A stretch of DNA of 64,000 nt from a virus. How positions within the stretch are numbered: position 1 is the stretch's first letter; the number at the start of each line of letters is the position of its first letter. The translations under genes were made by a program, and so were the position numbers. This document shows, piece after piece, positions 24,067-58,251 of the stretch. Where the stretch lies: positions 1 through 64,000 of the IMG/VR virus record IMGVR_UViG_3300032092_000021. One strand, written 5' to 3'. The notes under the pieces were generated by a model. It did not search any database, was not told the DNA's origin, and saw only the letters and a list, made by a program, of their open reading frames with translations.

Positions 24067-24083
24067 CGTAAATTAGTAATAGT

Positions 24084-24269
24084 ATGGCTAAGAAATCAAA
24101 GTCTTCTTTACCGAAGAAATTATTTGGAGGTGGTGATAAAAAATATAATCCCGCGGTACCAGGAATATTTAACATGGGTCAGAGAATGGAAGGTGCTGCA
24201 AATGTGTTAAGTAAAGGTGCTGTACCTGGAATGAAAAAAGGTGGTTCTACTAAATCTAAAAAAAAGTAA
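24084..24269 (+). CDS. Small basic KKGG protein (61 aa)
   Basis: 61 residues. An N-terminal KKSKSSLPKKLFGGG segment, a central hydrophobic-poor linker, and a C-terminus GMKKGGSTKSKKK. It carries the KKGGS word shared with neighbouring tiny proteins. Mostly Lys, Gly and Ser. No family; possible virion-packaged or DNA-binding protein. Confidence 0.65.
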   Translation: MAKKSKSSLPKKLFGGGDKKYNPAVPGIFNMGQRMEGAANVLSKGAVPGMKKGGSTKSKKK

Positions 24270-24273
24270 TATT

Positions 24274-24423
24274 ATGAAAAGTAAATGCATGTCTTGCGGA
24301 GGATCTATGAAAGGTTCTTCAAAAACTAAAATGGAAAAAGGTGGTAGTGCTGGGGGTACTGCACTTAAGAATGCTCTTATCAAAGCTGGTTACAAAAAAG
24401 GTGGTTCTGTAAAGAAGAAGTAA
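24274..24423 (+). CDS. Small Cys/Gly/Lys protein with two KGG words (49 aa)
   Basis: 49 residues from the ATG at 24274. An in-frame start at 24241 would overlap the previous gene and is less likely. It opens MKSKCMSCGGSMKG (a CxxC pair), then MEKGGSAGG and YKKGGSVKKK. It therefore has two KxGGS words and a possible metal site. The end forms a TAATG junction with the next gene. Confidence 0.65.
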   Translation: MKSKCMSCGGSMKGSSKTKMEKGGSAGGTALKNALIKAGYKKGGSVKKK

Positions 24424-28240: not shown

Positions 28241-28393
28241 ATGTCACAGTGTCCAAATTGCGGAGCAGCTATGAGCTGCGGATGTCAAAAGAAAGTACTT
28301 CCTAATGGAAAAATAGGATGTGCTAAATGTTATAACCCAGCACCTGCTGCAACACAAACCACAACTGAAAAAATTGATAACACCAGCTCATAA
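28241..28393 (+). CDS. Tiny zinc-ribbon protein (50 aa)
   Basis: 50 residues, MSQCPNCGAAMSCGCQKKVL at the start, then GKIGCAKC. Cys pairs CPNC, CGC and CAKC can bind one zinc ion. A polar Thr/Pro tail follows. Its stop codon overlaps the next start in TAATG, supporting a real gene. It may help folding or assembly of the Cys-rich appendage proteins around it, or act as a small regulator. Confidence 0.65.
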   Translation: MSQCPNCGAAMSCGCQKKVLPNGKIGCAKCYNPAPAATQTTTEKIDNTSS

Positions 28394-40471: not shown

Positions 40472-41065
40472 ATGATGAGGAACTTTAGAAAACCGGATCT
40501 TGGAGCTCCTAGATTTAGACCAAAAGCTTTCAATGTTTTAAACAAAGAACTCTGGAAAGAATTTAAGGAGAAGCATCCGAAGTATAAGGATCTTACTTAT
40601 ATGGAATTCAAGAAGATTATAAAACTAAGTAACCAGAAGTTTTGGGAAAAAGTAATCTCTTATAGAGATGGTGTTGAGTTACCCGAGAGTCTAGGTTTTA
40701 TTTTTATAGGTACGTGTACATCTCAGAACTCTAAAAGAAAAAACATAAACTACGGCAAATCAATTAAGTACGGCTTTGAGGTAAGCAATAACAATCTTAT
40801 TTCTGACGGAAAGCTAGCTAAGATTTTTTACACAAACTACGCGGTTAAGTATAAAGTTAGAGATAGAGAAATTTGGACGTTTACCCCGTGTAGATCTTTT
40901 AAGAGACAGGTTGCTAAGACATACCCAGAAAACTGGGAAAAGTATATTGAGGTTCCGGATAATCTTAAGATATCCAGATTGTATAATGAACTGATTTCTA
41001 AAGACATAGAAAAGAAAGAAGTCTCATCAGCAATTGTAAACTATAACGAATTTGATTTAAGCTAA
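40472..41065 (+). CDS. Conserved crAss-like neck-block protein (197 aa)
   Basis: 197 residues. Basic N-terminus (MMRNFRKPDLGAPRFRPK), then ELWKEFKEKHPKYKDLTYME, RDGVELPESLGFIFIGTC and VAKTYPENWEKYIEV. I recognise this sequence shape from crAss-like phages, where a small conserved protein lies beside the tail hub and ring genes. The role is unproven; packaging, assembly or a minor tail component is possible. It ends in a TAATG junction with the next gene. An alternative start three bases on (40475) cannot be excluded. Confidence 0.7.
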   Translation: MMRNFRKPDLGAPRFRPKAFNVLNKELWKEFKEKHPKYKDLTYMEFKKIIKLSNQKFWEKVISYRDGVELPESLGFIFIGTCTSQNSKRKNINYGKSIKYGFEVSNNNLISDGKLAKIFYTNYAVKYKVRDREIWTFTPCRSFKRQVAKTYPENWEKYIEVPDNLKISRLYNELISKDIEKKEVSSAIVNYNEFDLS

Positions 41066-41739
41066 TGACTACAATAGGAGAAAGCATATCAAGAGTTAGA
41101 AACTTGGTAAAAGCAGCAAAGCAAGATGCTTTTATGACTGATAGATTTATCTACAGTCTGATTGTAAAGTATGCTAAGTTGTTGATTAAGAGACAAGACG
41201 CTCTTAATGTAAGACTTAAGTTTGCAAGTCTTTTTAGAACTCTTCCTTGTGTAGAGCTAATAGAGACGGATAGAGTAGAAGCTTGCTGCGGCAGTTTACC
41301 GGACACCTGTAAAGTAATGCGTACCAGGGAAAAGATTCCTGCACCCTTTGAGGGAGCTTATGGTGCTTTTATTAGAACTGTGTCATCCATAGACGGATCG
41401 GTTGAGGTTTATAGAACCCAACCTGCTCAATTTACATCTATGACCAAGACTACCGCTTTTAAGTACAACAAGCAGAAGTACTACTGGTACATGAACGGTT
41501 ATCTGTATTTGCCTAACATTGAATGGGAAAGCGTTTTGCTAGAAGGAATCTTTGAAGAAGACATTGCGATATTTACATGTGCTTCTAACGGAATCTGTAA
41601 GATTCGTCAAGATGAAGTGTTAGGTATACCAGATGATCTCTTTGCTGAAGTAGAGCAAAATGTAATAGCACAACTTATGGGAACAGTTCAGATTCCTAAT
41701 GATACTAACAACTCTGACAAACAAAACATTCTAAGATAA
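41065..41739 (+). CDS. Ring / tail tubular-type protein, crAss-like (224 aa)
   Basis: 224 residues. The helical start (ESISRVRNLVKAAKQDAFMT, DRFIYSLIVKYAKLLIKRQD) is followed by a Cys-containing beta region (VEACCGSLPDTCKVMRTREK) and YYWYMNGYLYLPNIEW. This matches the general plan of podovirus connector/tail tubular proteins and, from memory, a crAss-like ring protein. TAATG junctions on both sides tie it to the neck-tail operon. It probably forms a dodecameric ring under the portal. Confidence 0.7.
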   Translation: MTTIGESISRVRNLVKAAKQDAFMTDRFIYSLIVKYAKLLIKRQDALNVRLKFASLFRTLPCVELIETDRVEACCGSLPDTCKVMRTREKIPAPFEGAYGAFIRTVSSIDGSVEVYRTQPAQFTSMTKTTAFKYNKQKYYWYMNGYLYLPNIEWESVLLEGIFEEDIAIFTCASNGICKIRQDEVLGIPDDLFAEVEQNVIAQLMGTVQIPNDTNNSDKQNILR

Positions 41740-42653
41740 TGGATTATAACTATACCCTGAAATACAGGACTTTTGATTCTCTTCTTGAGGATGTTAAGAT
41801 GGATCTCAGAAACTTGTCAGCTGATACAAGTATTGAACCTGCGCAGCTTATCAAAGTAGCACGTAAGTGTAACTATGATCTTGGTCTTAGAATTCAAAAA
41901 ACTAGAGAGACTGTTCTTGAGATAGAGAAAAGCAAAGCTCGTCTTCCTGAAGATTTTCAGATAATGAACTTTGCACTTATCTGCGGTAACTATACCGTTG
42001 TAGAAGTTCCTCCACAAGGAACTAATGTTCAAGAGATTGTACCTGGATATAGACCTTGGATTGAATCTAATACTTGTTCTGACTGTAATGGTACTTCACC
42101 GGAAACAACTTGTATGACTCAATGTGGCACTGACTATACTCTTGTTCAGATGGTCAATACAGTTAGGAGAGAGTTTAGAACTTTTTCTCCCATATCATTT
42201 AGAAGTTCTCAGTTTGTAGATGTAGAGTGTCCTAATGCATGTTCACCAAGATGGCATAACAAAGATGAAGCTTATATCAAAGATGGTTGGGTGTACACCA
42301 ACTTTGAAGACGGTAATCTATATATTAATTACCAAGCAGATATGGTAGATGATGAGGGTAATATTATTGTACCAGATCATCCTATGCTTAATGAGTATTA
42401 TGAATACTCACTCAAGAAAAGAATTCTTGAGAATCTTGTAATGGATAATGTGAATGTTACAGGACAATACCAACTTATTTCTGCAGAGCACAGAGTTGCT
42501 AGAAACGCAGCATTCAGTATTGTTAATACTCCTAACTTCTCTGAGATGATGAGGGTGTGGGCGATGAACAGAAAAGCAATGTACTCTAGGTACTACAATA
42601 TGTTTAAGAGCCACTACCATCCTTTTAATTTAAGAGTTAATAACGCTGTTTAA
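41739..42653 (+). CDS. Tail hub / tubular-type protein, crAss-like (304 aa)
   Basis: 304 residues. Helical N-terminus (FDSLLEDVKMDLRNLSADTS), then SKARLPEDFQIMNFALICGN, a central insert with Cys pairs (CSDCNG, CMTQC), and WVYTNFEDGNLYINYQADMV. The C-terminal half is helical (YYEYSLKKRILENLVMDN). It sits between the ring-type protein and the muzzle protein, the position of the tail hub in crAss-like phages. The Cys-rich insert may bind zinc or form disulfides. Exact layer assignment is inference. Confidence 0.72.
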   Translation: MDYNYTLKYRTFDSLLEDVKMDLRNLSADTSIEPAQLIKVARKCNYDLGLRIQKTRETVLEIEKSKARLPEDFQIMNFALICGNYTVVEVPPQGTNVQEIVPGYRPWIESNTCSDCNGTSPETTCMTQCGTDYTLVQMVNTVRREFRTFSPISFRSSQFVDVECPNACSPRWHNKDEAYIKDGWVYTNFEDGNLYINYQADMVDDEGNIIVPDHPMLNEYYEYSLKKRILENLVMDNVNVTGQYQLISAEHRVARNAAFSIVNTPNFSEMMRVWAMNRKAMYSRYYNMFKSHYHPFNLRVNNAV

Positions 42654-42655
42654 TT

Positions 42656-45600
42656 ATGGCAAAGAAACAAGGTACAACTCCCGAATCAGGGATTAGCTCT
42701 AACTCAGGATCTTTTACCAAAGGTCTTGTAAGAGACTTCGATGAAAACTTTGATCCAGAAAGTTCATGGCCTTATGCACGTAACGCTTCAAACAATTCTA
42801 AAGAGGGTGACGTTGGTGTTTTAGGTAACGAACCATCAAACTCTGCATGTGGAGTTGCTCCCTATACAGTTATTGGTAGAATATTTTTATTTAATGCTTA
42901 CTGGGCAATATTTTCTACAAATGATAGCGAGTCTGAAATAGGTGTGTATGATGAGTCGCTCTGTCAATACAGAACTGTAGTTAACCAGAAATGTCTAAAT
43001 TTTAGGAAACTAAAATTGATAACAGGTGTAGCTAAAGAAAACTTTGATTGTCAGTGGGCAGTTTACTTTGCTGATGGTAGAAATCCTGATAGGTACATAA
43101 ACTTAGGTAATCCTACATTGTGGCCAGATACAATGTATATGGGTAACAACTACTACCAAAATCAGGTACTGTGGCCAGGTGTACAGTGGGTAAAAGATTG
43201 CAAAGATGTAAACGATTGTACAATTTGTGATCTTGTAAATCAGTTAGATTGTAATCAAATAAGAATTAATAAACTAGTTAAGACCCCTTGTGTCAGACTT
43301 AGCGCTACAGAGGGTGGTGGTAACTTAGCTAATGGTTCATATGTTGCTTTTGTAGCATATCTAGAAAATGGACAGAAGTATAGTGATTATACATCTCCTT
43401 CTAATGTTCAACCTATTTTTGATCACGATAACTTAGGTGGAGCAATTACTGCTACCATATCCAATCTTGAAAATGAATCATTTACTGAGTTTGAACTTGT
43501 CATAGCAGCAACAGTAAATGGTCAAACTGTAGCTAGAAGAATAGGAATATATGCTTGCGATGACGCTCCTGTGACAGTATATTTAGATAGCATTAATGAC
43601 TCATTGACTACAGTACCTCTTGAGTTACTTCCTATAAGAACACCTCTTTATGAAACAGCAGACTCTATTTTTGAAACAGGTAGTTATCTACTTAAGATAG
43701 GTCCTCGTACAACATTTGATTTTAACTACCAACCCCTTGCTAACCAAATTCAAGCTAAGTGGTCTATTGTAAGGTACCCTATAAACTATTATAAGGATGG
43801 TGGTACAAATACCGGTTATATGCGGGATGAGGTTTACTCATTTTTTATCAGATGGATTTATGTAACTGGGGAAAAATCTAGGTCATATCATATTCCCGGA
43901 AGAATTGCGGACAGTAAAGATCTTACTGAGTCAATAGGCATCTATCCTACTGAATTAGAGTATGGTTTTGAAAAAGAAAATACCGCATCTGTAACAAGTA
44001 CCACTTCATCTACTCTTTCTGATGGAGGTGTTGTAATTGCTGAAGGACAGATGGGTTACTGGGAATCTAGTGAAAAATATCCAGATAGAAAACCTGAAAT
44101 TTGGAATTCTAGCTATGATCCTAAATTGTCTGGTACAAGTCAAACAACATGGGATCTTTGTAACAAACCTATCAGACATCATAAGATGCCTGAAGATGTT
44201 ATAAATAATAATGCAAATTATTCTAGAGCTATTACATTAGATGGTTCTGGAAATGTTGTTGCAAATCCTGGTTATACTGGCGCTACTCATTTGCAAGTAG
44301 TTGGTGTCAAGTTCTCAAATGTTAAACCTCCGGTTTATATAGATGATGATGGTAACGCACAAGTTGTTCCGGGTATATCTGGTTACGAAATACTTCGTGG
44401 ATCTAGAACAGGAAATAAATCTGTTATAGCAAAAGGTATTATAAACAACATGCGTGTCTATAAAGACATCGATGATACTTTAGGTCTTTATGCAAACTAT
44501 CCATATAATCCTGTAAAAAATGCTCCTCAACCATTTGGGTTACCGACAATAGATCCTACTCTATCATTTAAAGAAGTTAATGGTAGTGGTGGTAATTATG
44601 AAGAAGTTACCGAGGCACATGTAAAGAAAAACTTTTTTACATTCCACTCTCCAGATACTAGTTTTTACAAACCATTTCTTTCTGTAAAAGAATTAAAAAT
44701 ATATACAGAGTTAGGTAACTCAAAAAATGTAAAAGGAACTTTTGACCCTGTACCAGGACACCCTAAACAAAAGTTAATAACAAATGTTGCGTCTACTGCA
44801 GCTTTACTTCTAGGTATAGCAGAAGCTGTATTTGCAATGAAGGGTGATGAAGAATGGATAGCTGAGGGTAACAGAGCTTTGAATTTAGGTTTTTATGGTG
44901 CTTTTGGTGGAGCTTTAACTGCTAATGTCGGCGCATGGTCTGCACCTTTTGTGGGTCCACAAGCTGGCGCTGCAGTACTTGCTCCTCTTCAAACTGCAGA
45001 ACTAGCTGCGCAAATAGGAACCAGTACTGCAGCACAAGCTTCTTTAGGTGGCTTTAGTTCATTGGGTGGTGCTTCTTTGGTTACAGGTAACAATGCCCGA
45101 CTATACAATTTAGGTGCACAGGTAGCAAATGTAGGGTATACTGCAGCAACGGGTGGTTTTATGGGACCAGGTTTAACTAAAGTTCACAAAGAAGGTACTT
45201 TATCTGGTATGCCTACACCGATTGCTGCATTTGCGGCATTACCTACTTTGTACACATTGGCTACTGCTGCTGCAGCTAAGACACTAGATTTAATTTATGC
45301 TTTTGTAAAAGCTCGTAGTTATGTTTATAGATACGCGTCTCATGGGTTTCTTCATAAGGATAATGTACCACCTTCAAATAGAAGACATTATATAAATGAT
45401 TCAGCTTATTTGAATGAAGGTTTTAACATGTTTGCTAATTTTAAAATTAACAACATTAATAGATTTAAAACTACATTATTAAATACTAATACTGATGTAC
45501 CTGTTCCAGCTATTACAGATAATACAGGTGTCAGTCTATCTAGAAATGTTAGTCCTAGTATTCTTGATACGTCCGATGGTAGAACTAAATATTACTCAGA

Positions 45601-47923
45601 AGAAATTGTAAGAACTATATCTACCACCGCATCTTGTTTTTACTCAGGAATAAAAATTAGATTTAGAAATCAGTACGGACAACTAGATGCCATCAGACAG
45701 ATTCCATTACCTTGTCCTCAGATTGTAAATAATAATTTAGCAATACCCGCAACTGCTATTACATCAACTCAAACAGGAACAAATATTCCATTAGCAGTTA
45801 CACAATTTAATGTTTCTTATGAAACCGGTGTATTGTTTGGAGGAGATACCTATATAGGTAGATACACAGAAAAGAATACTTTCTTTTATTTTTATGACTG
45901 GTTGTATGGTCAGCCAGATGACACTCCTTTTAACTATAGATCTAAATACTTAGGTTTATATCCAAGATACTGGGCAGACTTTAGCAGATACGACATAGAT
46001 GGTATGATACCTTCTATGCTGCAAAGTTTGAGTAATCCTGGTTCATGGGAAACTCCAAATAATCAAGTAAATCTTGAACAAGAAGCACCTACAGGAAGTG
46101 GTTTAACAGGACTTGTAGGATTTGTTGCAGGAGCTGTTAGTTCTGTGTTCAGTGGTCTTTTAAGTTTATTTAATCTGGGTGACAATGAAAATCAAAATGC
46201 TGGAGGCAGTAAATTTAGTTTTAGTATTAGAAGAGGTTTCATGTATCTCTTTAACTCTGGTGTAAGAGATTTTTATGTAGAGTCAGATATTAATGTGGAT
46301 CAAAGAGACTGGGGTGAGCTAGATGAGCAAAAACACTTTGAGATTCTTTCTGACCTTAAAAGATTATTTGACACTCGAATTATTAAGTTCGGTAACTACT
46401 ATAAGATTGATCCATCTGTTTCATTGTCAAAGCTTTACTACAGTGTAGTATCCTGGGGTAACATGCAGGATAGAGATTACAATCCGATTGTAGCTGCGCT
46501 GTGCTATAAGTATTTACCAAACAGAGTCATCTACTCATTGCCCACAGTACTTGAAGGTAAGAAGGATGGTTGGAGATTATACTTACCAAACAACTATAGA
46601 GACTTTAAATCTAAGGTTACTGCTATTAGACCTATAGGTAAGAATGGAGCGCTGATGCTTTTTGATAGGGATAGTCCCGTTCAGATTCAGGGTACCGAAA
46701 CTCTTGAGTCCGATATGGGAACTAAGATTACAGTAGGTGACGGTGCATTGTTTAATAAACCATTACAGGCACTTATAAACACAGACCAGTCTTATGAGTA
46801 CGGATCTTGTCAAGATAAGTTTTCAATTCTAAATACCCCAGCTGGCATCTACTGGGTATCCCAATCCCTAGGAAAAGTATTTACAGTAGGAAGCGGACTA
46901 GAAGAGATATCAGCATCTGGTATGCGTTGGTGGTTTAGTAAGTTTTTACCTTACAGAATACTAGAGGATTTTCCAAATTTTGAAGCTATAGACAATCCTG
47001 TAATTGGTGTAGGTTGTCAAGCTGTTTATGATAATGACTCTTTGATGATATACTTTAGTAAGAAGGACTATGAACTTAAAAAAGATTTACCCGCAGGAAT
47101 TAGTCTTACTTATGTAGGTGGTATAGATTTTCTTTTAAACACAGGGGGTTCTTCCGGAAGACCTAATGCTGCTAAAATTAAATTGGGTGACCCTACCTAC
47201 TTTAATGATGTCTCATGGACAATATCGTATGACCCTAAAGCAAAAGCTTGGGTGTCTTTCCACGATTGGCACCCTACAATGATGATTCCTAGTAACCAGA
47301 ATTTTATAACTATCAATGATAATACTTTCTGGAGACATAATGATCGCACAGATAGTTTCTGTAACTACTACGGTAAAGATTACCCTTTTCAAGTAGAGTA
47401 TGTAGTAGACACAGGACAAGCAGTAAATACTTTAAAAAGTATAGAATATTTACTTGAATCGTATATTTACGATATAGATGGTATAGATAGATTCCAGATC
47501 TTAGACTTTAACTTTGACGAGCTTACTGTATATAACTCTGAGCAGGTATCCGGAAAACTTATTCTCAACATGGCACCTAAGGATAATCCTTTTGCCAGAT
47601 TGAACTATCCTGCTGTAACTGGTGCAGGGATAAATATCATGTACGAGAAAGTAGAACAGAAGTTTAGAGTAAATCAGTTCTGGGATGTTACTGCAGATAG
47701 AGGTGAATATAACGTAAACGTACAGAGACCGATATGGTTAACAGGATGGGATGGATACAGAAGAGAGCTTAATCCAGCTAACCTTAACTATGCTAAGTCT
47801 GTATTTGAAAGAAAGAAGTTTAGACATTACTACAACAACGTTTTGTTTACCAGAAAGGTTTCAGGTAATGCTAAAATGCTAATGAAGATATCTAATAATA
47901 AGAACTTACTCTCACCAAGATAA
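42656..47923 (+). CDS. Tail stabilisation / muzzle protein, crAss-like (1755 aa)
   Basis: 1755 residues. The N-terminal third contains VIGRIFLFNAYWAIFSTND, ECLNFRKLKLITGVAKE-type words and WAVYFADGRNPDRYINLG, which I recognise as the crAss-like tail stabilisation ('muzzle') family. Around residues 700-840 is an Ala/Gly-rich hydrophobic insert (ASTAALLLGIAEAVFAMKG and following), unusual for a soluble tail protein and possibly membrane-active. The C-terminal third is again Trp/Tyr-rich beta structure. It should close the tail tip and open at infection. It is longer than I expect for the family, mostly because of the insert. Confidence 0.8.
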   Translation: MAKKQGTTPESGISSNSGSFTKGLVRDFDENFDPESSWPYARNASNNSKEGDVGVLGNEPSNSACGVAPYTVIGRIFLFNAYWAIFSTNDSESEIGVYDESLCQYRTVVNQKCLNFRKLKLITGVAKENFDCQWAVYFADGRNPDRYINLGNPTLWPDTMYMGNNYYQNQVLWPGVQWVKDCKDVNDCTICDLVNQLDCNQIRINKLVKTPCVRLSATEGGGNLANGSYVAFVAYLENGQKYSDYTSPSNVQPIFDHDNLGGAITATISNLENESFTEFELVIAATVNGQTVARRIGIYACDDAPVTVYLDSINDSLTTVPLELLPIRTPLYETADSIFETGSYLLKIGPRTTFDFNYQPLANQIQAKWSIVRYPINYYKDGGTNTGYMRDEVYSFFIRWIYVTGEKSRSYHIPGRIADSKDLTESIGIYPTELEYGFEKENTASVTSTTSSTLSDGGVVIAEGQMGYWESSEKYPDRKPEIWNSSYDPKLSGTSQTTWDLCNKPIRHHKMPEDVINNNANYSRAITLDGSGNVVANPGYTGATHLQVVGVKFSNVKPPVYIDDDGNAQVVPGISGYEILRGSRTGNKSVIAKGIINNMRVYKDIDDTLGLYANYPYNPVKNAPQPFGLPTIDPTLSFKEVNGSGGNYEEVTEAHVKKNFFTFHSPDTSFYKPFLSVKELKIYTELGNSKNVKGTFDPVPGHPKQKLITNVASTAALLLGIAEAVFAMKGDEEWIAEGNRALNLGFYGAFGGALTANVGAWSAPFVGPQAGAAVLAPLQTAELAAQIGTSTAAQASLGGFSSLGGASLVTGNNARLYNLGAQVANVGYTAATGGFMGPGLTKVHKEGTLSGMPTPIAAFAALPTLYTLATAAAAKTLDLIYAFVKARSYVYRYASHGFLHKDNVPPSNRRHYINDSAYLNEGFNMFANFKINNINRFKTTLLNTNTDVPVPAITDNTGVSLSRNVSPSILDTSDGRTKYYSEEIVRTISTTASCFYSGIKIRFRNQYGQLDAIRQIPLPCPQIVNNNLAIPATAITSTQTGTNIPLAVTQFNVSYETGVLFGGDTYIGRYTEKNTFFYFYDWLYGQPDDTPFNYRSKYLGLYPRYWADFSRYDIDGMIPSMLQSLSNPGSWETPNNQVNLEQEAPTGSGLTGLVGFVAGAVSSVFSGLLSLFNLGDNENQNAGGSKFSFSIRRGFMYLFNSGVRDFYVESDINVDQRDWGELDEQKHFEILSDLKRLFDTRIIKFGNYYKIDPSVSLSKLYYSVVSWGNMQDRDYNPIVAALCYKYLPNRVIYSLPTVLEGKKDGWRLYLPNNYRDFKSKVTAIRPIGKNGALMLFDRDSPVQIQGTETLESDMGTKITVGDGALFNKPLQALINTDQSYEYGSCQDKFSILNTPAGIYWVSQSLGKVFTVGSGLEEISASGMRWWFSKFLPYRILEDFPNFEAIDNPVIGVGCQAVYDNDSLMIYFSKKDYELKKDLPAGISLTYVGGIDFLLNTGGSSGRPNAAKIKLGDPTYFNDVSWTISYDPKAKAWVSFHDWHPTMMIPSNQNFITINDNTFWRHNDRTDSFCNYYGKDYPFQVEYVVDTGQAVNTLKSIEYLLESYIYDIDGIDRFQILDFNFDELTVYNSEQVSGKLILNMAPKDNPFARLNYPAVTGAGINIMYEKVEQKFRVNQFWDVTADRGEYNVNVQRPIWLTGWDGYRRELNPANLNYAKSVFERKKFRHYYNNVLFTRKVSGNAKMLMKISNNKNLLSPR

Positions 47924-50900
47924 TGAATTGGCTAGATAAATTTATAGTATCCGAAAGAGGTCAGTGGGATTATCCCGGTTATCCTACAGTAATTCCAACT
48001 AAAAATGGTAGAATAACAATGGAAGGTGTTCCATATCCTGTAATAGGATTTGTTCCTGGACAACCTCCTGTTATGATGCAACCTGGTAAAAATTATAAAT
48101 TTCCAGGTAACATGGTGTATGAAATACCTGTAACGGAAAATAAGGTTTTTAAAACCAAGGAGGATTTTTATAGAGATCTATTACTACAAACAAGAAATAA
48201 ATACTGGCCAAAAAGAGAAAGTAAACCTTTTGATTTAGGTTTTGATAGTGCGTTACCTAGAGTTGGTCCAGGACCAATTAAAATGCCTACTATAAGATCT
48301 AGTTATACCGGCATTGCAATGAAGCAAGGTGGACATATACTTCCAGGTAGACTTAAAAACCCAGAAGGTAACTGGGTGTCAGTATATGCTAACGGAGGAG
48401 ACATATCTATCCCAGATTTGTCTAGACCTAATTGGTTAGATAAGTATCAATCTAAAACTACATCTGGTTCTGTTTCTAAATCTGGTCCAAGAATTGAAAA
48501 CTTACCGATTCAGAAAGTTGATAACAAACTAGAAATAGCATATGATGGAAGCACTGTATACGTGCGTAAGATAGGTGAAGAGAAATTTACCACGCTTAAC
48601 CCGGAGAAGTCTAAAGCTTTTATTCAAAAGTACCAAGGGTTTATACCACCAACTCTAACTCAGGTTGAGGAACAGAAAAAGAAACAAGCTGCTTATAATG
48701 CAAAGATTGCCAAAGAGAAGAAAGAGTTTGATGAACTTCGCAAGGTAGATACTACTCCTAACCCTAGGGAGAAGGAGATGATGATAGAGCTTGCTAGAAA
48801 AGAAAGAGCAGAGCTAGGTGAAAAAGGTTTTCTTGAACAAGCATGGGACGCCTTACCAAATGCATCTTCTATTACAGATCCTATTAAAAGAGCATATCAT
48901 GCTTTACCGGATGTTGGAGATGTATCTAAGGTTGCTAGTGGAATGATGGGTCTACCCGAAGAGCTAGCAAAACAAGGAGTAAGCTATCTTTGGAATAATT
49001 ATAAAGTACCTCAGACCGATATTCCAGTTTTAAGGAGTATTGGTGAGCTTACACCAAAAGAGATATACGAAAGTTTTCAAAACAGATATGTAGAAAAAAA
49101 CTTTGGTGAAGCAGGTTTGATAGGTGAATCAAATCTTGAAGAGTTTAATGTTCTTGATGAGACATCTGGCACATCTAACATGCAAGAACTACCTAAAAGT
49201 AGAGCTAAGTACGGACCTCAAAGTTTACCATTAAGAAAAGACAGTAGAGGTAACTTGCTTCCTGCATATCAACCTATTGGTGGAAATGACTCGTTAGCTA
49301 GATTTAGTTACACATTTAACAATGACATTGCTGGTGCTGATAGTTTACCGCCAACCCACTTTGTTACTCCTAAGATAAAAGAGCTTACAGGAAATCCAGA
49401 TCGCCCTAGACAATGGGACAATGCATTTGCTGTAGGTGATTTCTTGAGAGACGCAGATATAACTGAGAATCAGTTTTATCATCCCGATAAATACTACGTG
49501 GGTACCTCTAACAGTGCATTGCGTAATAGTGATCTAGGTATAAAAAGTAATAAACTTATAAGTGCAAGTAATCAGCTAATTAACGATCCTGAAAAATACT
49601 GGGCAGTATATAAGTGGGATCCAAAAAATTCTGAAGCTGCGTGGGTTAGATACATGAAGACTGATGAGATAAAATCTAAAAAAGATGAACTTGAAAAACA
49701 AGGGTGGAGTCTAGATATGCCTGTTTCTGGTCAACACAGATTTGATGACGTAGATTGGGAGGGTAAAGGTTCAGATACAGGATACAAGGCAGACTCTGAA
49801 TGGGTACCTCTTAAGAAAGGTGCAAAACAAATAAAGAGTCAGAAAGGTGTAAATCATACCTACATTCCTCAAGGTACAAGTAAGGGTCAAGATAAAGGTA
49901 CTTACAATTTATTCTCGGGAGGTTCTATAACATTTATATGGAAAGATCCAGAGACCAATGAAAGATTAGCTTCAACTTTAGCTGGATCTGTATCTGATAT
50001 GAAAGCATATGGTGAAAAGCTTAAGAAAGAATATGGTTTGAAGGAAGGTGATCTTGAGATTGTTTATCATGATACAGGATCATACTCTGCTAAACCTGCT
50101 GCTAAAGATGGTACCCTATACTACGATCAGTGGAAAAACTACAATGCGTACAACAAGGGTTACTCTGGTGCAGCACTGATAGTACCTACACAAGATTGGT
50201 TAGAGAACTGGACTCCTAATAAGAAAGAAGGAGGACAACTAGATAAGTATCAATCTAAAGATACAGGTGCTATAAAAAAAGGATGGCATCAAAAAGTTTA
50301 TAATGATCCTGATGCATTTGCAAAAGCTAATAAAGCTTTTAACGATAGTCTTAATCTTAGCAAAAGAAGTTACGAGCTTCTTAAGGATATAGCTCCTAAC
50401 AGCTCATATAAAAGTAATATTCCCTATGAAGATGTATATTTTACTGCTGATGGACCAGGTGGTTATTTTATAGATAATGTTGACTTTGGTAGGCAGTTTT
50501 TAGGTTTAAATTATTTAACGGATACTAATTTTAGAATACCTGGCACAAAAGAGCAACTTATTTTAGAAGAAGCTTTTTCAAAAAGAATAAAACCAATAGG
50601 TTTTAATACAACTGACTTTCCAGTACCTATTTATAAATGGCCAACCGAAGAGCCCGTGTATGAAGAACTTAAAAACTTACCTTATCTAGATGCGAAACTG
50701 GAGCGTCCTGATTTTAAGTTAGATATAGGTAAACCACCGGTAAAGTCTCAGGGTATTAGAATTAGACCTATGATGACTGCCGATCAAACTACCAGTACTG
50801 GTCAGTATCAATCCGGTAAGTATATGTGGGATCCAGAAACAAAATCCTGGAAAGTCAAAATGCTAAGTCCTGAAACTCAACAAGAAAACAGAAAAGAGGT

Positions 50901-53058
50901 TAGAATAGGGATTAAAAAATATGGAGGTTGGTTAGATAAATACCAAGATGGTAAAGAAGTAAAAACATATGCTAATGATCCTAGCTACTTTGACAATCGT
51001 GCTGTATTTGTAGATAATCCACAAGCTAATGATCTAGTTAGATCTAAGGTGTATGCCGGAACACATGGATGGGATCCTAACACCAATTCATTAGTTAAGC
51101 TTGATAAACCAGTTGCTGTACCTAAAGCTGTGCAAGAGATGTCTACAGCAGATTGGGGTAAGAAAAGGTCTAAGGAAAGATTTGAATCTAACACACCAGC
51201 TGGTAAAGCTACAAGAAAAGCAGTAGTTGCAAGAGATATGCAACAGATGGTACAAAACCCTGCGTTCTACGCTCCCGGTGCTATTGCAGCTGGAGCACTT
51301 GCAGCACCCGCACTTGCGGGAGTTGCGGGAACACTAACAGCACCTTTGACTATAGGATCAACTGTAGTTCCAGGAGCTACTATGGGTAATGCGTTAGCTG
51401 CAGGATTTGCTGCAGATGCACTCGTAAATAGATTGCCACAAATCCCAGGACAATTAAACAGAGGTGAATATAGTGATGCTGCTATTAATGCCGCAACAGG
51501 ATTACTAGATGTGGGGTCTGCTGGTATGCTTAACTCTTTATATAAGACTGCAACAAAAGCTATTAAGTCTACATACGCTCCTTCCGAACTAGATATTATT
51601 AGAGGTCTATTAAAAAAGGGAAACCAACGCCAAATAGAAATAGAGCGTAATGTAAAACCAGTTCAGGCTACAATATCACAAAATCCATATTCAGTAACAT
51701 TACCAACTCTTACAAAAGAAGAAGATCTTATAAGAGATAGTTATAATAGAAACAGATGGTCTAATGATCCCGGATTCTGGAGATGGTATAATAAAAAACA
51801 TCATGGTTTAGATTACGATAGACCTATTAAAAGATTTTTTGATCCATCAGATCCTGGACATTTGTCTGATACTGCTGATGATGCAAATAGAGTATCATTC
51901 TTTGACTCTTCCGAGATGTCAAATATAGACAGTCAAATTAAACAAGGTAATACTTGGTTACAAGATTGGTTTAAAAATCCTGCTACTGCTCAAAGAATAG
52001 CGAATACAGGGTTTGACGAGTCTTCGTTAGTTAGAAAAAACATTAACGATTTTGTAGATAATAAAAATGTTGTAAGATTTGAGCCCTCCTTAAGCTCAAA
52101 AATATGGACAGGAAATGAATTAGGAAGTTACTTTCCTAAGTCTAATAAAGCATATGTAGATGCGGAGCATTTTTCTTTTATGGATGGAACCAAATCAATA
52201 CCATCAACAGTAATACATGAGGGTACGCATTTAACAAGTGCTGGAGAACTTGCTTATAATCAGAAACTAACAGATCTTACAGCTGATATATTTAGGGGTA
52301 GTGATGCAAGTGAGTTTGCTAAAATGTTCCGTACAGAAAATGATATTAAAAAAGTTAATAAACTGACATCTCCTGCAGAAACACATGCTAGGATTATGCA
52401 AATAAGACAACAGTATAATATAAAACCAGAGCAAATAGTTGATGATACAGTTATCAATAAAATTATAGAGGACGGTCTTTCCGGTAAATTGCCCGTAAGC
52501 AAAAAATTCTTTGAGCTAATTCAAAACAAAGATGCTTTCAAAAAAGCAATGAATACTTTACCTGCAATAGGTGCGGGCGTTGCTATAGGTACTGGAGGAT
52601 TACAAGAAAAGAAAACCGGTGGATCAACAAGATGGTTAGATCGATATCAGGATGGTGGGTCTAGAGAGATGCCACTCGGACTACCCTTGAGAGAACAAAA
52701 CGTTTACTTACTTCCTGAGTATAATCAACCAATGGCTAATGGTTATATTCTTCCTGATCCTAACAGACCAGAGTTAATGAATACAGGAGCTACTGAGTAT
52801 AAGTATTCATATGGAATGGACGACAGAGATGTTCAAGTTCCAAGTGTAGTAGCAGGTCAGTATATTGGAGATAGAGCTTTTGATAGATATATGATATCCG
52901 GAGAAGAGTTTAAACCAATGGTTGACCCAAGTTCCTATAGCCAATACTACGATATGCTTAATAGATTAGGGTTAATGAAACAGAAAAAAGGAGGAGAAAT
53001 GTCCCCAAGTATGGGATATTTTAACTATATTGGTGGATATGGGGGTATGTTGCCTTAA
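47923..53058 (+). CDS. Giant modular virion protein with LDKYQ/GG motifs and HEGTH domain (1711 aa)
   Basis: 1711 residues, TAATG-coupled to the muzzle gene. Short motifs recur: MNWLDKF at the start, NWLDKYQ (48431-48451), GGQLDKYQ (50230-50253), GGWLDKYQDG (50923-50952) and GGSTRWLDRYQDGGS (52618-52662), plus KQGG, NGG and KKGG words. Between them lie separate domains, one with DLEIVYHDTGSYSAKP (about residues 708-723). An Ala/Gly hydrophobic stretch at about 1115-1185 could insert in membranes. His1432-Glu-Gly-Thr-His (HEGTH) with ETHAR later suggests a zincin metallopeptidase. Probably an ejected or processed cargo protein; the module roles are unknown. Confidence 0.7.
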   Translation: MNWLDKFIVSERGQWDYPGYPTVIPTKNGRITMEGVPYPVIGFVPGQPPVMMQPGKNYKFPGNMVYEIPVTENKVFKTKEDFYRDLLLQTRNKYWPKRESKPFDLGFDSALPRVGPGPIKMPTIRSSYTGIAMKQGGHILPGRLKNPEGNWVSVYANGGDISIPDLSRPNWLDKYQSKTTSGSVSKSGPRIENLPIQKVDNKLEIAYDGSTVYVRKIGEEKFTTLNPEKSKAFIQKYQGFIPPTLTQVEEQKKKQAAYNAKIAKEKKEFDELRKVDTTPNPREKEMMIELARKERAELGEKGFLEQAWDALPNASSITDPIKRAYHALPDVGDVSKVASGMMGLPEELAKQGVSYLWNNYKVPQTDIPVLRSIGELTPKEIYESFQNRYVEKNFGEAGLIGESNLEEFNVLDETSGTSNMQELPKSRAKYGPQSLPLRKDSRGNLLPAYQPIGGNDSLARFSYTFNNDIAGADSLPPTHFVTPKIKELTGNPDRPRQWDNAFAVGDFLRDADITENQFYHPDKYYVGTSNSALRNSDLGIKSNKLISASNQLINDPEKYWAVYKWDPKNSEAAWVRYMKTDEIKSKKDELEKQGWSLDMPVSGQHRFDDVDWEGKGSDTGYKADSEWVPLKKGAKQIKSQKGVNHTYIPQGTSKGQDKGTYNLFSGGSITFIWKDPETNERLASTLAGSVSDMKAYGEKLKKEYGLKEGDLEIVYHDTGSYSAKPAAKDGTLYYDQWKNYNAYNKGYSGAALIVPTQDWLENWTPNKKEGGQLDKYQSKDTGAIKKGWHQKVYNDPDAFAKANKAFNDSLNLSKRSYELLKDIAPNSSYKSNIPYEDVYFTADGPGGYFIDNVDFGRQFLGLNYLTDTNFRIPGTKEQLILEEAFSKRIKPIGFNTTDFPVPIYKWPTEEPVYEELKNLPYLDAKLERPDFKLDIGKPPVKSQGIRIRPMMTADQTTSTGQYQSGKYMWDPETKSWKVKMLSPETQQENRKEVRIGIKKYGGWLDKYQDGKEVKTYANDPSYFDNRAVFVDNPQANDLVRSKVYAGTHGWDPNTNSLVKLDKPVAVPKAVQEMSTADWGKKRSKERFESNTPAGKATRKAVVARDMQQMVQNPAFYAPGAIAAGALAAPALAGVAGTLTAPLTIGSTVVPGATMGNALAAGFAADALVNRLPQIPGQLNRGEYSDAAINAATGLLDVGSAGMLNSLYKTATKAIKSTYAPSELDIIRGLLKKGNQRQIEIERNVKPVQATISQNPYSVTLPTLTKEEDLIRDSYNRNRWSNDPGFWRWYNKKHHGLDYDRPIKRFFDPSDPGHLSDTADDANRVSFFDSSEMSNIDSQIKQGNTWLQDWFKNPATAQRIANTGFDESSLVRKNINDFVDNKNVVRFEPSLSSKIWTGNELGSYFPKSNKAYVDAEHFSFMDGTKSIPSTVIHEGTHLTSAGELAYNQKLTDLTADIFRGSDASEFAKMFRTENDIKKVNKLTSPAETHARIMQIRQQYNIKPEQIVDDTVINKIIEDGLSGKLPVSKKFFELIQNKDAFKKAMNTLPAIGAGVAIGTGGLQEKKTGGSTRWLDRYQDGGSREMPLGLPLREQNVYLLPEYNQPMANGYILPDPNRPELMNTGATEYKYSYGMDDRDVQVPSVVAGQYIGDRAFDRYMISGEEFKPMVDPSSYSQYYDMLNRLGLMKQKKGGEMSPSMGYFNYIGGYGGMLP

Positions 53059-53089
53059 TGAGTATCTTTGACTTATAAATAATTCTAGT

Positions 53090-55345
53090 ATGAAAAAAGA
53101 ATTTATGCGAATAGGGGGAGCTAAAACTGAAAAAGAGTTTTACGAAATGTACCCAACAGAAGAAGCTTTCCTTATGAAACATGGTGGCGCTATAAATAAA
53201 CTTATGGCAAAAGGTGGTGAAGCATATCCACAAACAGCTACTATGGATAACTTTTTTAGTTACGGGGTACCAGTCCCACCTACTTACTATCGTCAGGGTG
53301 GTGCATTCCCTATGGCACAACCAGAGAATCAGTTCTTCTCCCCTTTCTATGGAAACGTTCCTAACCCATACAATAAAGCTATGGGTGGAAGCTCTGAAGC
53401 ATATCCCCAGTCAATGTCTTTTCCCTATGGAGACACTGGTAGAAGCACACACTTTATGATGGAAGAGGGTGGGTATATGCCTGAAGAACAAACTCTGCCA
53501 AAGATGGGAGTCAACGGTAAACTCCTAGAGTTTGTTGGTACTATTAAAAACACAGCTACTAATAAACTAAACAGTAATCTTGCTACATACGGTAAAGTAA
53601 AGAACCCTGAGCAGTATGAATTTGAGCAAGCTAAATACGGTGGTAATCTAAAAAAATATCAGGCTGATGCTACTTCCGGAAATACACCACCTCAAGACGC
53701 TGGTGCTGTTTCTGACAAACCTGCAGGAAGCAATGTTTACAATTATTACTACGGATATGATCCTCGTCAGAATCAAGGAGCTGGTCAACTTCCTCCAGAA
53801 TACTATAATGACATAGACTATTTACGTGGAAGAAGAAGACCACTCAGTGACTTTAATATTCGCGGTAGAGGTATGGCGGGTAATTATAGAGCAACTGGTT
53901 GGTTGAAAGATGAGTATGGATTGGATAGACTTAGAGAAATGGGTCTAACTAGAATGGATCAAAGTAATCCAAGATGGTGGCAGTTAATGAAGCGTCCTAC
54001 ACAAACTTACTATTTTGGAAATCAGGGACAAGGACCAATGGGATATGTACCAGGTCAAGTAGATCAACAAGGTATGCCTATTACAAACCAACAAGGACCT
54101 GCTGCAGGGGGTGCAGGTACTACTGGTACTACTGGCGGCACAGGTACTACCGGTACAGGTCAACCAGATTCTACATCAGATTTAGGTTTCTTTGCTAGAC
54201 TGTTTAATAGACAAGGTAATATAACTCCGCAGTCAGCAAATATTACTAGGAAACCTACAGATCTTCAAGCAGGATCTCCTGAAATGATTAGTGACGCTAA
54301 CCCCTATGCTTATAACATTGCAAAGTCTGATACTTGGAACCAGATTCAACAGAATAAGAGAAAGAGAATTTTTGGAAAGCTGGATGAACTAGAAGGTCGT
54401 AAACAGTGGCAAAAAGATACTCTTGGTTTAGCTTATGACAATATGAAAAATAAACCTGTTGATCCTGTAACGGGTAAACCGTTTGATAGAGAGGAATATA
54501 TGGCAGCAGGTGACCAGTTATACGGCAGGAAAAAAAGACAAGAAGATAGATTAAAGAGAAGAGAAACAAGATCAAACGATAGATTTGGCATTTACGATGA
54601 AGGTGGCAGCACACCCCCATGTCCTCCAGGATATACTTGGAAAGGAGGACAGTGTGTAAAACAATCTAGAAAAGAAAGAAGAGAAAACCCTCAGCAATAT
54701 CAATCTCATGTAGGGGAATCTTATAGAACTCCTGTTACTGCTGCTGAATATAAAAGACAAGAAGAAAGTAAAGCTAGAGAACAAGAGCTCATGAGACAGG
54801 AAGCTGAGCAAGAAAAGTATTTAAGAGATCTTCCTACTATGGATTCTTCTGAAGAGTACCTTAAAAATAATCCTAAGGATACACCTTTTGTAAAAAATAA
54901 AGATGTTACAGTAGGGACACCCATAACAGAAGATCCATATAGAGCTTTACCGGGAGCTAATCCAGTGCTTACTTTTCCTTTAACTAGTTATGAGCAGTTT
55001 TATCCTCAGAACATGATTAAAAGAGATGTTTATGCTCCACAGATGGAAGTACCATATGAGTTTCCTAATTACACAGATCGTGAGAGACTTTCGAATCTTT
55101 TAGATGCTGTTGATGCTGGACTTATTCCATCTAATTTTCGTACTACTGATCCAATGGAAATAGAAAGACAAAATAGAATTTCAGATGCTGTTGGTTCTGG
55201 AGTACCTTTTAATCTATCCGGTCCTAGAGAATACAGAAAAGGTGGATCTTCTAGAAATTACAATACGGGAGATGTAGTAGATATGACTCCGGAAGAACTA
55301 AAGAGATTCATTGAAATGGGTGGTCAAGTAGAATTCTTAGACTAA
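53090..55345 (+). CDS. Gly/Pro/Gln-rich virion protein with repeated GG motifs (751 aa)
   Basis: 751 residues. GG words are frequent: MKHGGAINKLMAKGGEAYPQ, YRQGGAF, MGGSSEAYPQ, MEEGGYMPEEQ, YGGNLKKYQ (53636-53662), YDEGGSTPPCPPG, YRKGGSS and EMGGQVEFLD. EAYPQ occurs twice after GG words. The middle is Gln/Gly/Thr-rich and probably disordered (TTGTTGGTGTTGTGQ), followed by a Lys/Arg/Glu helix (RKKRQEDRLKRRETRSNDRF). No catalytic motif. It shares the motif system of its neighbours, so a packaged or structural linker protein is likely. Confidence 0.65.
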   Translation: MKKEFMRIGGAKTEKEFYEMYPTEEAFLMKHGGAINKLMAKGGEAYPQTATMDNFFSYGVPVPPTYYRQGGAFPMAQPENQFFSPFYGNVPNPYNKAMGGSSEAYPQSMSFPYGDTGRSTHFMMEEGGYMPEEQTLPKMGVNGKLLEFVGTIKNTATNKLNSNLATYGKVKNPEQYEFEQAKYGGNLKKYQADATSGNTPPQDAGAVSDKPAGSNVYNYYYGYDPRQNQGAGQLPPEYYNDIDYLRGRRRPLSDFNIRGRGMAGNYRATGWLKDEYGLDRLREMGLTRMDQSNPRWWQLMKRPTQTYYFGNQGQGPMGYVPGQVDQQGMPITNQQGPAAGGAGTTGTTGGTGTTGTGQPDSTSDLGFFARLFNRQGNITPQSANITRKPTDLQAGSPEMISDANPYAYNIAKSDTWNQIQQNKRKRIFGKLDELEGRKQWQKDTLGLAYDNMKNKPVDPVTGKPFDREEYMAAGDQLYGRKKRQEDRLKRRETRSNDRFGIYDEGGSTPPCPPGYTWKGGQCVKQSRKERRENPQQYQSHVGESYRTPVTAAEYKRQEESKAREQELMRQEAEQEKYLRDLPTMDSSEEYLKNNPKDTPFVKNKDVTVGTPITEDPYRALPGANPVLTFPLTSYEQFYPQNMIKRDVYAPQMEVPYEFPNYTDRERLSNLLDAVDAGLIPSNFRTTDPMEIERQNRISDAVGSGVPFNLSGPREYRKGGSSRNYNTGDVVDMTPEELKRFIEMGGQVEFLD

Positions 55346-55350
55346 TTACA

Positions 55351-58251
55351 ATGAAAGTTAGAATCACAAAAGCTCCTAAGGTTAAAAAGTATCAAGCTTT
55401 ATTTACCCCTGGTCAAGTAGAGGAGGATCCTTTTTATGTACCAAACAGTATGGATGGTCAAAGGAATTATGTAAATGCTCCTATTAATTTACAAACTAAT
55501 CAAAATGGTAGTCTTGCTGGTTCTGGTGTTTTACAACCCGGATTAGCTCTTGATAAAAACAACCAGACTGTAAATCTCAATAATGTAAACGACAACGTTA
55601 CAAATGAGCAACAAATTAGCAAAGGTTTGCAAGGTAGCATAACAGAAAAAGGTCAGTCAAAGTTTGGTCAGTTTATAAGAGGTTTAGGACCTAAAGGTGG
55701 AATGAAGGCTTATGAAAATCGTCAAGACTGGAAAGAGATTATTGCGGGGATTGCTAGCAGAAAGAGTAAAAAAGATATGGATGCGCAAGCCGTTAAAGGT
55801 TTTCATAATATGCAACCTATTGCTGCAGCAACCCAGGGTACGTTTGATCCTAATAGTATGAATAACTTTACTCCTGGTATGCTAAACACAGTACCTTCTA
55901 CAGGAGATTTTGCTGCATCACCATATATGAATATGGGTTATGGAAAAAATGGTGGTCAATACATGGCATATGGTGGTAGAGTGTTTAATCAGGTAGCACC
56001 TAATGCTTTACCCGATAAAACATCTGAACCTAGAATAGCTGTATCAAATACACTACAGCCAATACCTAGAGAGTTTGCAAATATTGAAGCAGAGAAAGAT
56101 GAGACTATATACTTCTTAAACAACGGTGGTCTTCCTGCACATTATAAGATTGGTGGTCAACCGCACAGCAAGGGAGGAACTCCTTTAAATGTTCCCGAAG
56201 ATAGCTTTGTATTTAGTAAAGCGTTGAAGATTAAGGATAAAAGATTGTTTCCTTTTTTTGATATAAATAAACCTACCAGCTTTTCAGATGTTGCTAAAAA
56301 ATACGATATAAATAAATTTAGAAAAGTATTAGCAGATCCTGATACGGACAAGTTGCAAAGAGAAACTGCCGAGAAGATGATTGGTAACTACAATCTTAAA
56401 CTCGGTATGTTAGCTTTAGCGCAAGAATCTACAAAAGGATTCCCGCAAGGTTTACCTATGATAGCTGCACCGTTTACTGCAGTTAATGCGCTAGATCCAG
56501 AAATGATTTTACCTACACCACCTCAGTCTGCTGAGATGCCGGAAGAACAATTTATGGAACAAGAGATGCCCGCTTATAAATTCGGAGGAGCTATGAGAGT
56601 TAGAATTAAATCTTTACCTAGATATCAGTCATACAATACTGGTGCTAGTGTTGCTGATGATATGATGTCAGATGCTGGTTTATCTGACCAAACTTACGTA
56701 CAAACCCCACCAGCAAATATACCCCCACCTCCACCTGTTGCTGTTGTTACACCTGCTGCACCAGCAGCACCTCCTGCAGCAACTGTAGCTACTCCTACAG
56801 CTACTCCTCCACCTACTATTGTGGTAAATGGAGTTACAATAGATACAGCAACTAATCAACCTGTAGCTAAGTCTTCTCCTGCTAGTGACAATAAAAAGAA
56901 AGCATCTAAATCAGAGTCTAAAAGTACCGCAGGTACATTTGATTTCAATGTAGATGTTATGGAGGGTAATCCTGACTTTTGGCAGGGTTACACTGATTTG
57001 GTTACATCTGGTGTTATCAAACAAGAATTAGCAACAGGGTTTGAAGATGCTGCTGTTCGTCAGCGCGAAAGTCAACAAGGTCTTAGACCAGGTACTGCAA
57101 ACGTATATGGTGATAGAGATATTCATAAGGGAGAACTCTTTGATGACTTTAAGAAAAGACAAGCGTGGTATTTTCAAAATAAGAAAAACTGGAATCCTGA
57201 AAATAAAGCTGACGTAGAAGACTTTCAAAGAGAGTATTGTAAAAAAGCTGCTGAGTACGGTATGAAGTCTTGTTACTTTAATACCAAGGATGTAAAAGAT
57301 TCTAAAGGTAGAACTATAAAGGGGACTACGTTTGATGGTCTTTATGGTGAGCACACTTTTAATGCTCCAGGATTTAATAAAGCTGATGCACAACCAGAAC
57401 CTCAACCACAACCTCAACCAGAACCAGAAAAAAAACCAGAACCTATTAAGACTAATCCTTTAGATGTATCTGAGGATTATACTCGTAGAAGCGGTTATTT
57501 CCCTCAGGATCTTATAAATCTTTCTGCAGCTTTAGCTCAAAGAATTACTGTACCTGATACATGGTATGCTCCTTTACAGTTTAAAGGTGTAGACCCTGCG
57601 TATCTGGTACCGGACTATAGTCCAATCATGGAAGCTGCTAATATTAGCACTCAGGGTGTTAATGCTTATGGTTCTCGTCAAAGTGCAGATGCTTCATTTG
57701 CTCTTATTCAGGGTAAATCAGCAAGACCTTCTGCGGAACATAATCTAGCAGTTGCTAATGCTAATGCAGGTATTTACAATAACGCTCAGCAGATTAACGC
57801 ACAGATAGCAAATCAAAATGCTATGTACAATAATCAGTTAGCTCAAGCAGACTTTGATGCTAATGCACTTTATGAGCAAGAAAGAATAAAAGCTCAGAAT
57901 AAAAAGAGAGCGGATCTTGCTAGACTTGTAAACACCGCGATTACCAATAGAGCTACTGCAGAAACTCTTAGCGATGCATACTCCGAGTATTTCAATATAG
58001 ATCCTACTCGTGGCGGACATGTTGAGTTCTACAAAGGAATTGATGAGCTTGTACCTAACGACAAAGCAGATATGGACGATCTTGCATCACTTGATAAACA
58101 GCTTACAAATCTTGGTTACACTAAAGAAGAAAAGAAAGATATTCTTAAATCTGCACTAGCCAGTAAGTATGCTACAAAGGGTACTAGGAATCCATATCTA
58201 CCTGATTACTCGCAGCTTATGTATCCATTTAACATGCAGCAGGGTTCTTAA
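55351..58251 (+). CDS. Modular virion cargo-type protein with GG/YQ motifs and Pro-rich linkers (966 aa)
   Basis: 966 residues. It opens MKVRITKAPKVKKYQALFTP, echoed internally by GGAMRVRIKSLPRYQSYNTG (56584-56643). Residues about 265-380 contain YKIGGQPHSKGGTPLNVPED, then FVFSKALKIKDKRLFPFF, a module I have seen in Bacteroidota phage proteins. A Pro/Ala/Thr linker (about 450-500) and a second QPEPQPQP linker (about 685-705) flank a domain with DGLYGEHTFNAPG. The C-terminal 250 residues are Ala/Asn/Gln-rich helix. Probably packaged with DNA or held at the portal vertex. Confidence 0.68.
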   Translation: MKVRITKAPKVKKYQALFTPGQVEEDPFYVPNSMDGQRNYVNAPINLQTNQNGSLAGSGVLQPGLALDKNNQTVNLNNVNDNVTNEQQISKGLQGSITEKGQSKFGQFIRGLGPKGGMKAYENRQDWKEIIAGIASRKSKKDMDAQAVKGFHNMQPIAAATQGTFDPNSMNNFTPGMLNTVPSTGDFAASPYMNMGYGKNGGQYMAYGGRVFNQVAPNALPDKTSEPRIAVSNTLQPIPREFANIEAEKDETIYFLNNGGLPAHYKIGGQPHSKGGTPLNVPEDSFVFSKALKIKDKRLFPFFDINKPTSFSDVAKKYDINKFRKVLADPDTDKLQRETAEKMIGNYNLKLGMLALAQESTKGFPQGLPMIAAPFTAVNALDPEMILPTPPQSAEMPEEQFMEQEMPAYKFGGAMRVRIKSLPRYQSYNTGASVADDMMSDAGLSDQTYVQTPPANIPPPPPVAVVTPAAPAAPPAATVATPTATPPPTIVVNGVTIDTATNQPVAKSSPASDNKKKASKSESKSTAGTFDFNVDVMEGNPDFWQGYTDLVTSGVIKQELATGFEDAAVRQRESQQGLRPGTANVYGDRDIHKGELFDDFKKRQAWYFQNKKNWNPENKADVEDFQREYCKKAAEYGMKSCYFNTKDVKDSKGRTIKGTTFDGLYGEHTFNAPGFNKADAQPEPQPQPQPEPEKKPEPIKTNPLDVSEDYTRRSGYFPQDLINLSAALAQRITVPDTWYAPLQFKGVDPAYLVPDYSPIMEAANISTQGVNAYGSRQSADASFALIQGKSARPSAEHNLAVANANAGIYNNAQQINAQIANQNAMYNNQLAQADFDANALYEQERIKAQNKKRADLARLVNTAITNRATAETLSDAYSEYFNIDPTRGGHVEFYKGIDELVPNDKADMDDLASLDKQLTNLGYTKEEKKDILKSALASKYATKGTRNPYLPDYSQLMYPFNMQQGS

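Follow-up and report, generated by a model that had tools for sequence, protein, structure and literature searches.

We found that a short peptide, WLDKYQ flanked by pairs of glycines, recurs along a 1711-aa protein of a crassvirus-like phage, and we propose, with a probability of about 0.5, that it is a short linear docking (cargo-loading) peptide that anchors an ejectable protein inside the virion. The phage is represented by a 64,000-nucleotide stretch (the window) of the 75,391-base IMG/VR virus record IMGVR_UViG_3300032092_000021. The protein, MG1 (47923..53058, + strand, as are all features of the tail and cargo genes given below), is a modular protein with WLDKY tags that is encoded in a conserved place directly after the gene for the muzzle protein. 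Crassviruses are very abundant gut phages that are found in other environments too, and the motif bears on how they load and hold megadaltons of cargo in the capsid and tail. No relevant use of WLDKY was found in the literature searched, in keeping with a first-pass annotation of the window that knew of no described function, and our findings suggest that WLDKY is a cargo tag in phages for which that literature describes none.

The first-pass annotation had listed eight sites in three successive genes, and we recovered each of them at its position. The three proteins (3,428 aa) contain the pattern [LVI][DKP][KR]YQ 7 times, compared with 0.04 expected from shuffles of the same proteins (at most 2 in 5,000 shuffles), and it was absent from the remaining 21,175 aa of the phage's proteins. 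This recurrence is far above chance. IQKYQ near 48622, which has no GG context, was left out of the count. Nor did the motif prove to be internal to one folded domain family, the other outcome that would have spoken against it; as had been claimed, it is a tag set between unrelated modules, in stretches that are flexible and rich in glycine, and the protein belongs to the phage cargo region. The claim that one motif runs through all three proteins held for MG1, while the copies in the second and third proteins are different elements (see below).

MG1 of the window begins with MNWLDKF (47923..47943), which lacks KYQ and is supported as a true N-terminal copy by the N-terminal M-x-GWLDKY copies in relatives. 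The further copies are NWLDKYQ (48430..48450), where the relative G037 has GGWLDKYQ; GGQLDKYQ (50230..50253), with Q for W in G037 too; GGWLDKYQDG (50923..50952); and GGSTRWLDRYQDGG (52618..52659). Behind the first copy lies the conserved core of MG1, a beta domain of ∼57 aa that we call YPG (47959..48129; alignment of 48 sequences). The module between the last two tags carries HEGTH (52216..52230), a putative zinc metallopeptidase motif, and had no match in a Pfam scan of this MG1. From the copy at 48430 to that at 50923, MG1 is 82 percent identical to its counterpart in the nearest relative; the shared block starts ∼12 residues before NWLDKYQ and ends ∼10 residues past GGWLDKYQDG, and the genes differ beyond it. 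None of the three proteins matched Pfam or PHROGs, and a tblastn search of phage records gave one weak match for MG1 and none for the third protein. We also observed that the module between the last two tags of the G037 MG1 (L051/L218) resembles a protein kinase by eye (DNYGHNVLYD...FKFIDLS), again with no Pfam match.

Across 192 instances of the motif, in which W was fixed by the search, L was found in 96 percent, D in 82 percent, K in 67 percent, and Y or F in 89 percent, figures that are upper bounds because the search pattern constrains these positions. Glycine occupied positions -1 and -2 in 85-88 percent of instances, and GG appeared again at +7/+8 in more than 60 percent of those with sequence there. 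The flanks contained 20 percent glycine compared with 9 percent in whole MG1. AlphaFold2 predicted that both terminal copies of one relative (L191) and the C-terminal copy of the smallest MG1 (L261) are disordered, and that the first copy of L261 is an isolated 6-residue helix, at low confidence. WLDKY had 12 DNA spellings among 44 copies, indicating that the peptide, not the DNA, is conserved.

When viral contigs were searched with a DNA pattern for GWLDKYQ, 48 stretches matched, most of which read in frame as KxGG-WLDKYQ-[DENT]GG or as an exact C-terminal GGWLDKYQ-stop; a strict DNA pattern had no match in GTDB genome contigs. The strict motif Kx-GG-WLDK[YF]-x-[DE]-GG occurred in MG1 only, and in the whole proteomes of 23 phage contigs 53 of 54 instances of the relaxed, GG-flanked motif lay within MG1. 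The MG1 genes of these contigs held 55 GG-flanked motifs, compared with 0.012 in shuffles, and in most of the contigs the MG1 start overlaps or abuts the muzzle stop codon. The 23 contigs had been chosen mostly via the motif itself, so we consider the figures from 160 loci, for which the only query was the C-terminal region of the muzzle, to be less biased. These loci formed two clade sets, each comprising the 80 nearest relatives of its query rather than a random sample, and the clade 1 set included some contigs previously found by the motif. In clade 1, the motif was present in 44/44 complete non-redundant MG1 genes, in 40 of them no more than 5 residues from the C-terminus, in the form GGWLDKY(Q)-stop; other copies sit close to the N-terminus. 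In clade 2, to which the window belongs, it was present in 25 of 66 MG1 genes and at the C-terminus in 13. Among pattern-found open reading frames with the motif and at least 900 bases upstream, 52 of 60 adjoined a muzzle gene recognized by two profiles. Five of the other eight, which lack either GG on both sides or a related context, look like chance. L020 (in G014) and L318 lie behind divergent muzzles, recognized by Pfam at 1e-123 or better; L318 ends in GGWLDNLK, and L338 shows the same motif context as L318. LDKYQ within the muzzle of G012 and G024, without GG context, was taken as chance.

Judging from the alignments, MG1 is a conserved frame filled with swappable modules. The clade 1 frame starts with an N-terminal mini-module (helical, Zn-ribbon, or none) that reaches up to the first WLDKY, so that three different beginnings join the same motif, and continues with a SLPGATGxMYAR element, the YPG domain, LxNFTNYN, and the terminal GGWLDKY. 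Pfam matches in the variable modules were to amidase, LysM, SLT transglycosylase, peptidoglycan-binding, phage tail lysozyme, YkuD, Peptidase_M91, ART-PolyVal, and acetyltransferase domains, each type in one to a few MG1 members; most modules had no Pfam match. Clade 1 chains mostly carry 2-3 copies of the motif across lengths of 254 to 2,276 aa (Spearman 0.24, p 0.12), and the clade 2 protein L261, the smallest MG1, fits motif-YPG-motif into 99 aa and has no enzyme module. Alignment ends fell within 10 residues of a motif in 8.8 percent of cases compared with 3.5 percent, a 2.5-fold enrichment: the motifs mark the borders of some modules, not of most. The YPG domain was modeled by AlphaFold2 with a pLDDT (predicted local distance difference test) above 90 in a relative. 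Our searches of Pfam, PHROGs, and PDB did not find it: comparison with solved structures gave two weak sequence matches only (E ∼0.35), and Foldseek gave nothing with E below 0.001. The domain also occurs in the post-muzzle gene of the cultured Leptolyngbya phage Lbo-JY46 (L135:24575-26062), with a weak transglycosylase match after it. Separately, four clade 2 MG1 proteins (L271, L277, L282, and L286) share a C-terminal end of the form ∼KTSSExSxAEKxKFKxxKTxSxRIxYxHKR.

We reasoned that the motif serves in docking because of its terminal and inter-module place, its flexible hinges, its conservation at the peptide level, its few copies at any protein length, and its one muzzle-coupled slot. It is restricted to one gene beside the muzzle rather than spread over proteins in general, and the tags are kept in L261, which consists of the YPG domain and two tags only. 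The terminal copies would fit as well, by analogy with terminal targeting peptides, as would the module types, which by their Pfam matches (tail lysozyme, transglycosylase, amidase, ART-PolyVal, and M91 peptidase) are of the kinds that one would expect an ejected protein to carry.

The first-pass annotation had left docking and cleavage side by side, and docking agrees better with these data. Cleavage is the main rival, albeit an unlikely one: a phage or host peptidase would free the modules by cutting GG-WLDKYQ-GG, either before packaging or once injection has taken place, and MG1's own zinc peptidase modules would be the obvious candidate enzyme. Copies are indeed found between modules of unrelated kinds, cleavage in a GG context is plausible, HExxH is found in many MG1 proteins, and Iyer et al. 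(PMC5512222) proposed that zincin-like peptidases process polyvalent proteins. However, the copies at the extreme C-terminus in clade 1 and at the N-terminus separate nothing, copy number does not rise with length, HExxH is present in 34 and absent in 33 of the 67 motif-bearing complete MG1 genes, and L261 has two copies and no module to free. The same terminal copies join nothing, which counts against a joint for recombination, that is, a common sequence used for module swapping between phages, whose peptide has no binding role. Such a joint would account for the block bounded by two copies in the window and its nearest relative, the enrichment of alignment ends near the motif, the three beginnings that join one motif, and a codon identity between copies above that expected from codon usage (0.106 compared with 0.048); yet the DNA spellings are many, 91 percent of alignment ends are not near a motif, and shared descent may explain the excess codon identity, so that we hold this explanation to be somewhat less probable than cleavage.

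Two further explanations appear improbable. The tag might act after injection, when it would bind a factor of the host or of the phage inside the cell and so, for example, localize effector modules. Host-directed module types (ART-PolyVal and the Peptidase_M91 effector) are present in some cases; many MG1 modules, however, are peptidoglycan hydrolases, whose site of action would be outside the cytoplasm, and the place of the gene is tied to the muzzle. To the last explanation, a mere spacer, we give the least credence. A soluble glycine hinge that parts modules or eases unfolding at ejection, with no specific binding, would be consistent with the GG flanks and the predicted disorder, but W-L-D-K-Y is conserved far beyond the need of a spacer, and terminal copies space nothing.

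For docking, we envisage that MG1 is made beside the muzzle and is probably stored in the virion for ejection. Enzyme modules (peptidoglycan hydrolases, zinc peptidases, ADP-ribosyltransferase) would be inserted into a frame made of the YPG domain, in one clade the LxNFTNYN tail, and WLDKY near both ends. W, L, and Y would be displayed on a short peptide, perhaps one helix turn, set apart by the Gly-Gly hinges, and this peptide would bind a repeated site inside the virion, most likely in the lumen of the tail barrel or muzzle and less likely in the capsid. Several copies per chain would provide avidity, modules could be swapped without loss of retention, and the tags would hold MG1 in place until its ejection into the bacterium. 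We favor the tail or muzzle lumen over the capsid interior, where the first-pass annotation had suggested a partner, because of the gene position and the overlap with the muzzle gene; the interpretation given there is overall partly supported. Peptide docking sites in a crassvirus tail are real, since in crAss001 the portal and tail barrel bind segments of the cargo protein C1, and a helical cargo peptide of 14 residues, present in six copies and unassigned, lies against the muzzle (PMC10172136).

Our analyses show the motif, its place, the modular frame, the predicted disorder, the gene context, and the C1 homology described below; we infer from them that MG1 is in the virion, that its tags bind there, which partner they bind, and that MG1 is retained until ejection. 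Several points weigh against docking. The motif was absent in 41 of the 66 clade 2 MG1 genes and in cultured relatives and is therefore not essential for the post-muzzle slot as such; other tags may replace it there. On a muzzle tree, motif presence was clustered (7 changes compared with 21.6 when shuffled, and at least five gains or losses), which may reflect adaptation to the muzzle or plain descent. Finally, the muzzle-side peptide of crAss001 may, according to its authors, belong to gp45, the C1 protein itself (PMC10172136).

The third of the three genes (55351..58251, 966 aa) is, by profile comparison, a homolog of C1: the family of its HxxGG domain (56077-56379) matched that of the portal-bound domain of phicrAss001 gp45 in hhalign (92.6 percent, E 4.6e-7), while a single-sequence Pfam scan at 0.1 gave no match. 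In MG1 the portal-bound gp45 domain was not found: the YPG domain reached 0.4 percent against the C1 domain, so that we rejected a relationship between the two, and WLDKY is not the gp45 element. The third protein contains VKKYQ within MKVRITKAPKVKKYQ at its N-terminus (55351..55395) and LPRYQ within the internal GGAMRVRIKSLPRYQ (56584..56628; also in G037). By their sequence, both belong to a second tag, [KR]V[KR]I..LP[KR], distinct from WLDKY. C1 homologs mostly begin with [KR][VI][KR]I..LP, and the second tag starts most of those found (a strict pattern picked out 19 of 32, and inspection by eye gave more), including that of phage Lbo-JY46 (MKIRIIGLPKAQ). It also forms the end of MG1 in six clade 2 loci (L222, L223, L225, L229, L234, and L240; GGSVRKVKIKSLPRKNQ). 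Its presence on two different cargo genes favors a shared receptor, and C1 and some MG1 proteins may use it for a purpose similar to that of WLDKY. A looser K[AYF]QxG was enriched in MG1 and the next gene and starts some RNA polymerase giants and small proteins; it may form one family with WLDKYQ. GGWLNTQGG of crAss001 gp45 (residue 427, at the start of the portal-bound domain) was rejected as the same motif and considered a coincidence because it is mostly not kept in nine other crass-like C1 homologs and Dulem virus 41.

The second protein (53090..55345, 751 aa) has a conserved N-terminus, MKxxFxxIxGxKTExEFYxxYPTEEAF, and carries GGNLKKYQ (53639-53662), which was found in none of the relatives examined. 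It ends in MTPEELKRFIEMGGQVEFLD (55283-55342), a member of a third conserved tag class. Many second genes, and some MG1 genes as well (L219-L297), close with this C-terminal tag, ∼[TS]xEE[IL]x(6-8)GGx[IV]E[FY]LD-stop, and one gene of phage Lbo-JY46 ends with a variant of it. It is a tentative idea, more doubtful than not, that GG-WLDKY, [KR]VKI..LPK, and C-terminal xxEEIxxxxxGGxIEYLD make up a code of short tags on crassvirus-like ejectable proteins, each addressing a docking site in the tail, muzzle, or portal. If so, any tag-linked enzyme module could be loaded and ejected in order. A defined tag and a fixed genomic slot make the question testable by peptide pulldown or cryo-electron microscopy, and the tags offer a handle for finding fast-changing injected proteins.

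The gene neighborhood identifies the phage as crassvirus-like. The genes for tail ring protein 2 (41065-41739; Pfam CrAss_Ring_2 3.5e-21), tail ring protein 1 (41739-42653; CrAss_Ring_1 8.9e-12), and the muzzle (42656..47923; crAss_MUZ 1.2e-23) follow one another in crassvirus order at 41065-47923, downstream of a structural block with portal (1e-93), terminase (1e-56), and major head protein (1e-31) by PHROGs. The muzzle stop codon overlaps the MG1 start codon at 47923, and the three genes discussed above come right after the muzzle gene, the position that cargo protein genes occupy in phicrAss001 (PMC10172136). A von Willebrand A domain (Pfam 5e-8) was recognized in the protein encoded at 28393-30333, by one of the structural genes that precede the tail rings. 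Very small basic proteins cluster at 23612-24423 beside a conserved 82-aa gene (23818-24066) that matches the C-terminal end of PHROG 3477; its 68-aa neighbor begins MAKKLKKFQPGG, and the starts in relatives are MKKLKKAQVG or MKKKLKKYQ.

Several known systems invite comparison. Polyvalent phage proteins, as described by Iyer et al. (2017; PMC5512222), combine several domains, ART-PolyVal and zincin-type ones among them, and are presumed to be packaged and then injected. ART-PolyVal, M91, and acetyltransferase domains were found in a few MG1 relatives, and the window MG1 itself has no Pfam match. No WLDKY-type tag was found in the passages of that paper that were covered, and MG1 has many peptidoglycan hydrolases and is tied to the muzzle gene. 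C1 (gp45) belongs to the same gene block as MG1, and short segments of this ejectable protein dock in the portal and tail (PMC10172136), whereas its GGWLNTQGG is not the conserved motif and MG1 is an extra gene between the muzzle and C1. Closest by function, by analogy and with no membership claimed in either, would be two terminal targeting peptides. The T4 capsid targeting sequence, which is N-terminal on internal proteins and removed by the prohead protease, is likewise a short tag that directs ejectable proteins into the phage particle; WLDKY differs in that its copies are also internal and C-terminal and lie beside a muzzle gene. Encapsulin cargo-loading peptides, such as GGDLGIRK, are ∼10 residues long, follow a flexible, Gly-rich linker at the end of a protein, and load cargo into a shell of the HK97 fold (PMC8229669). 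WLDKY differs in being internal and repeated as well and in belonging to a tailed phage. The likeness, which comes with no shown sequence relation, is one of architecture: a terminal peptide after a flexible linker, as in the 40 of 44 clade 1 MG1 proteins that carry the motif at the C-terminus, with motif flanks rich in Gly and terminal copies predicted to be disordered.
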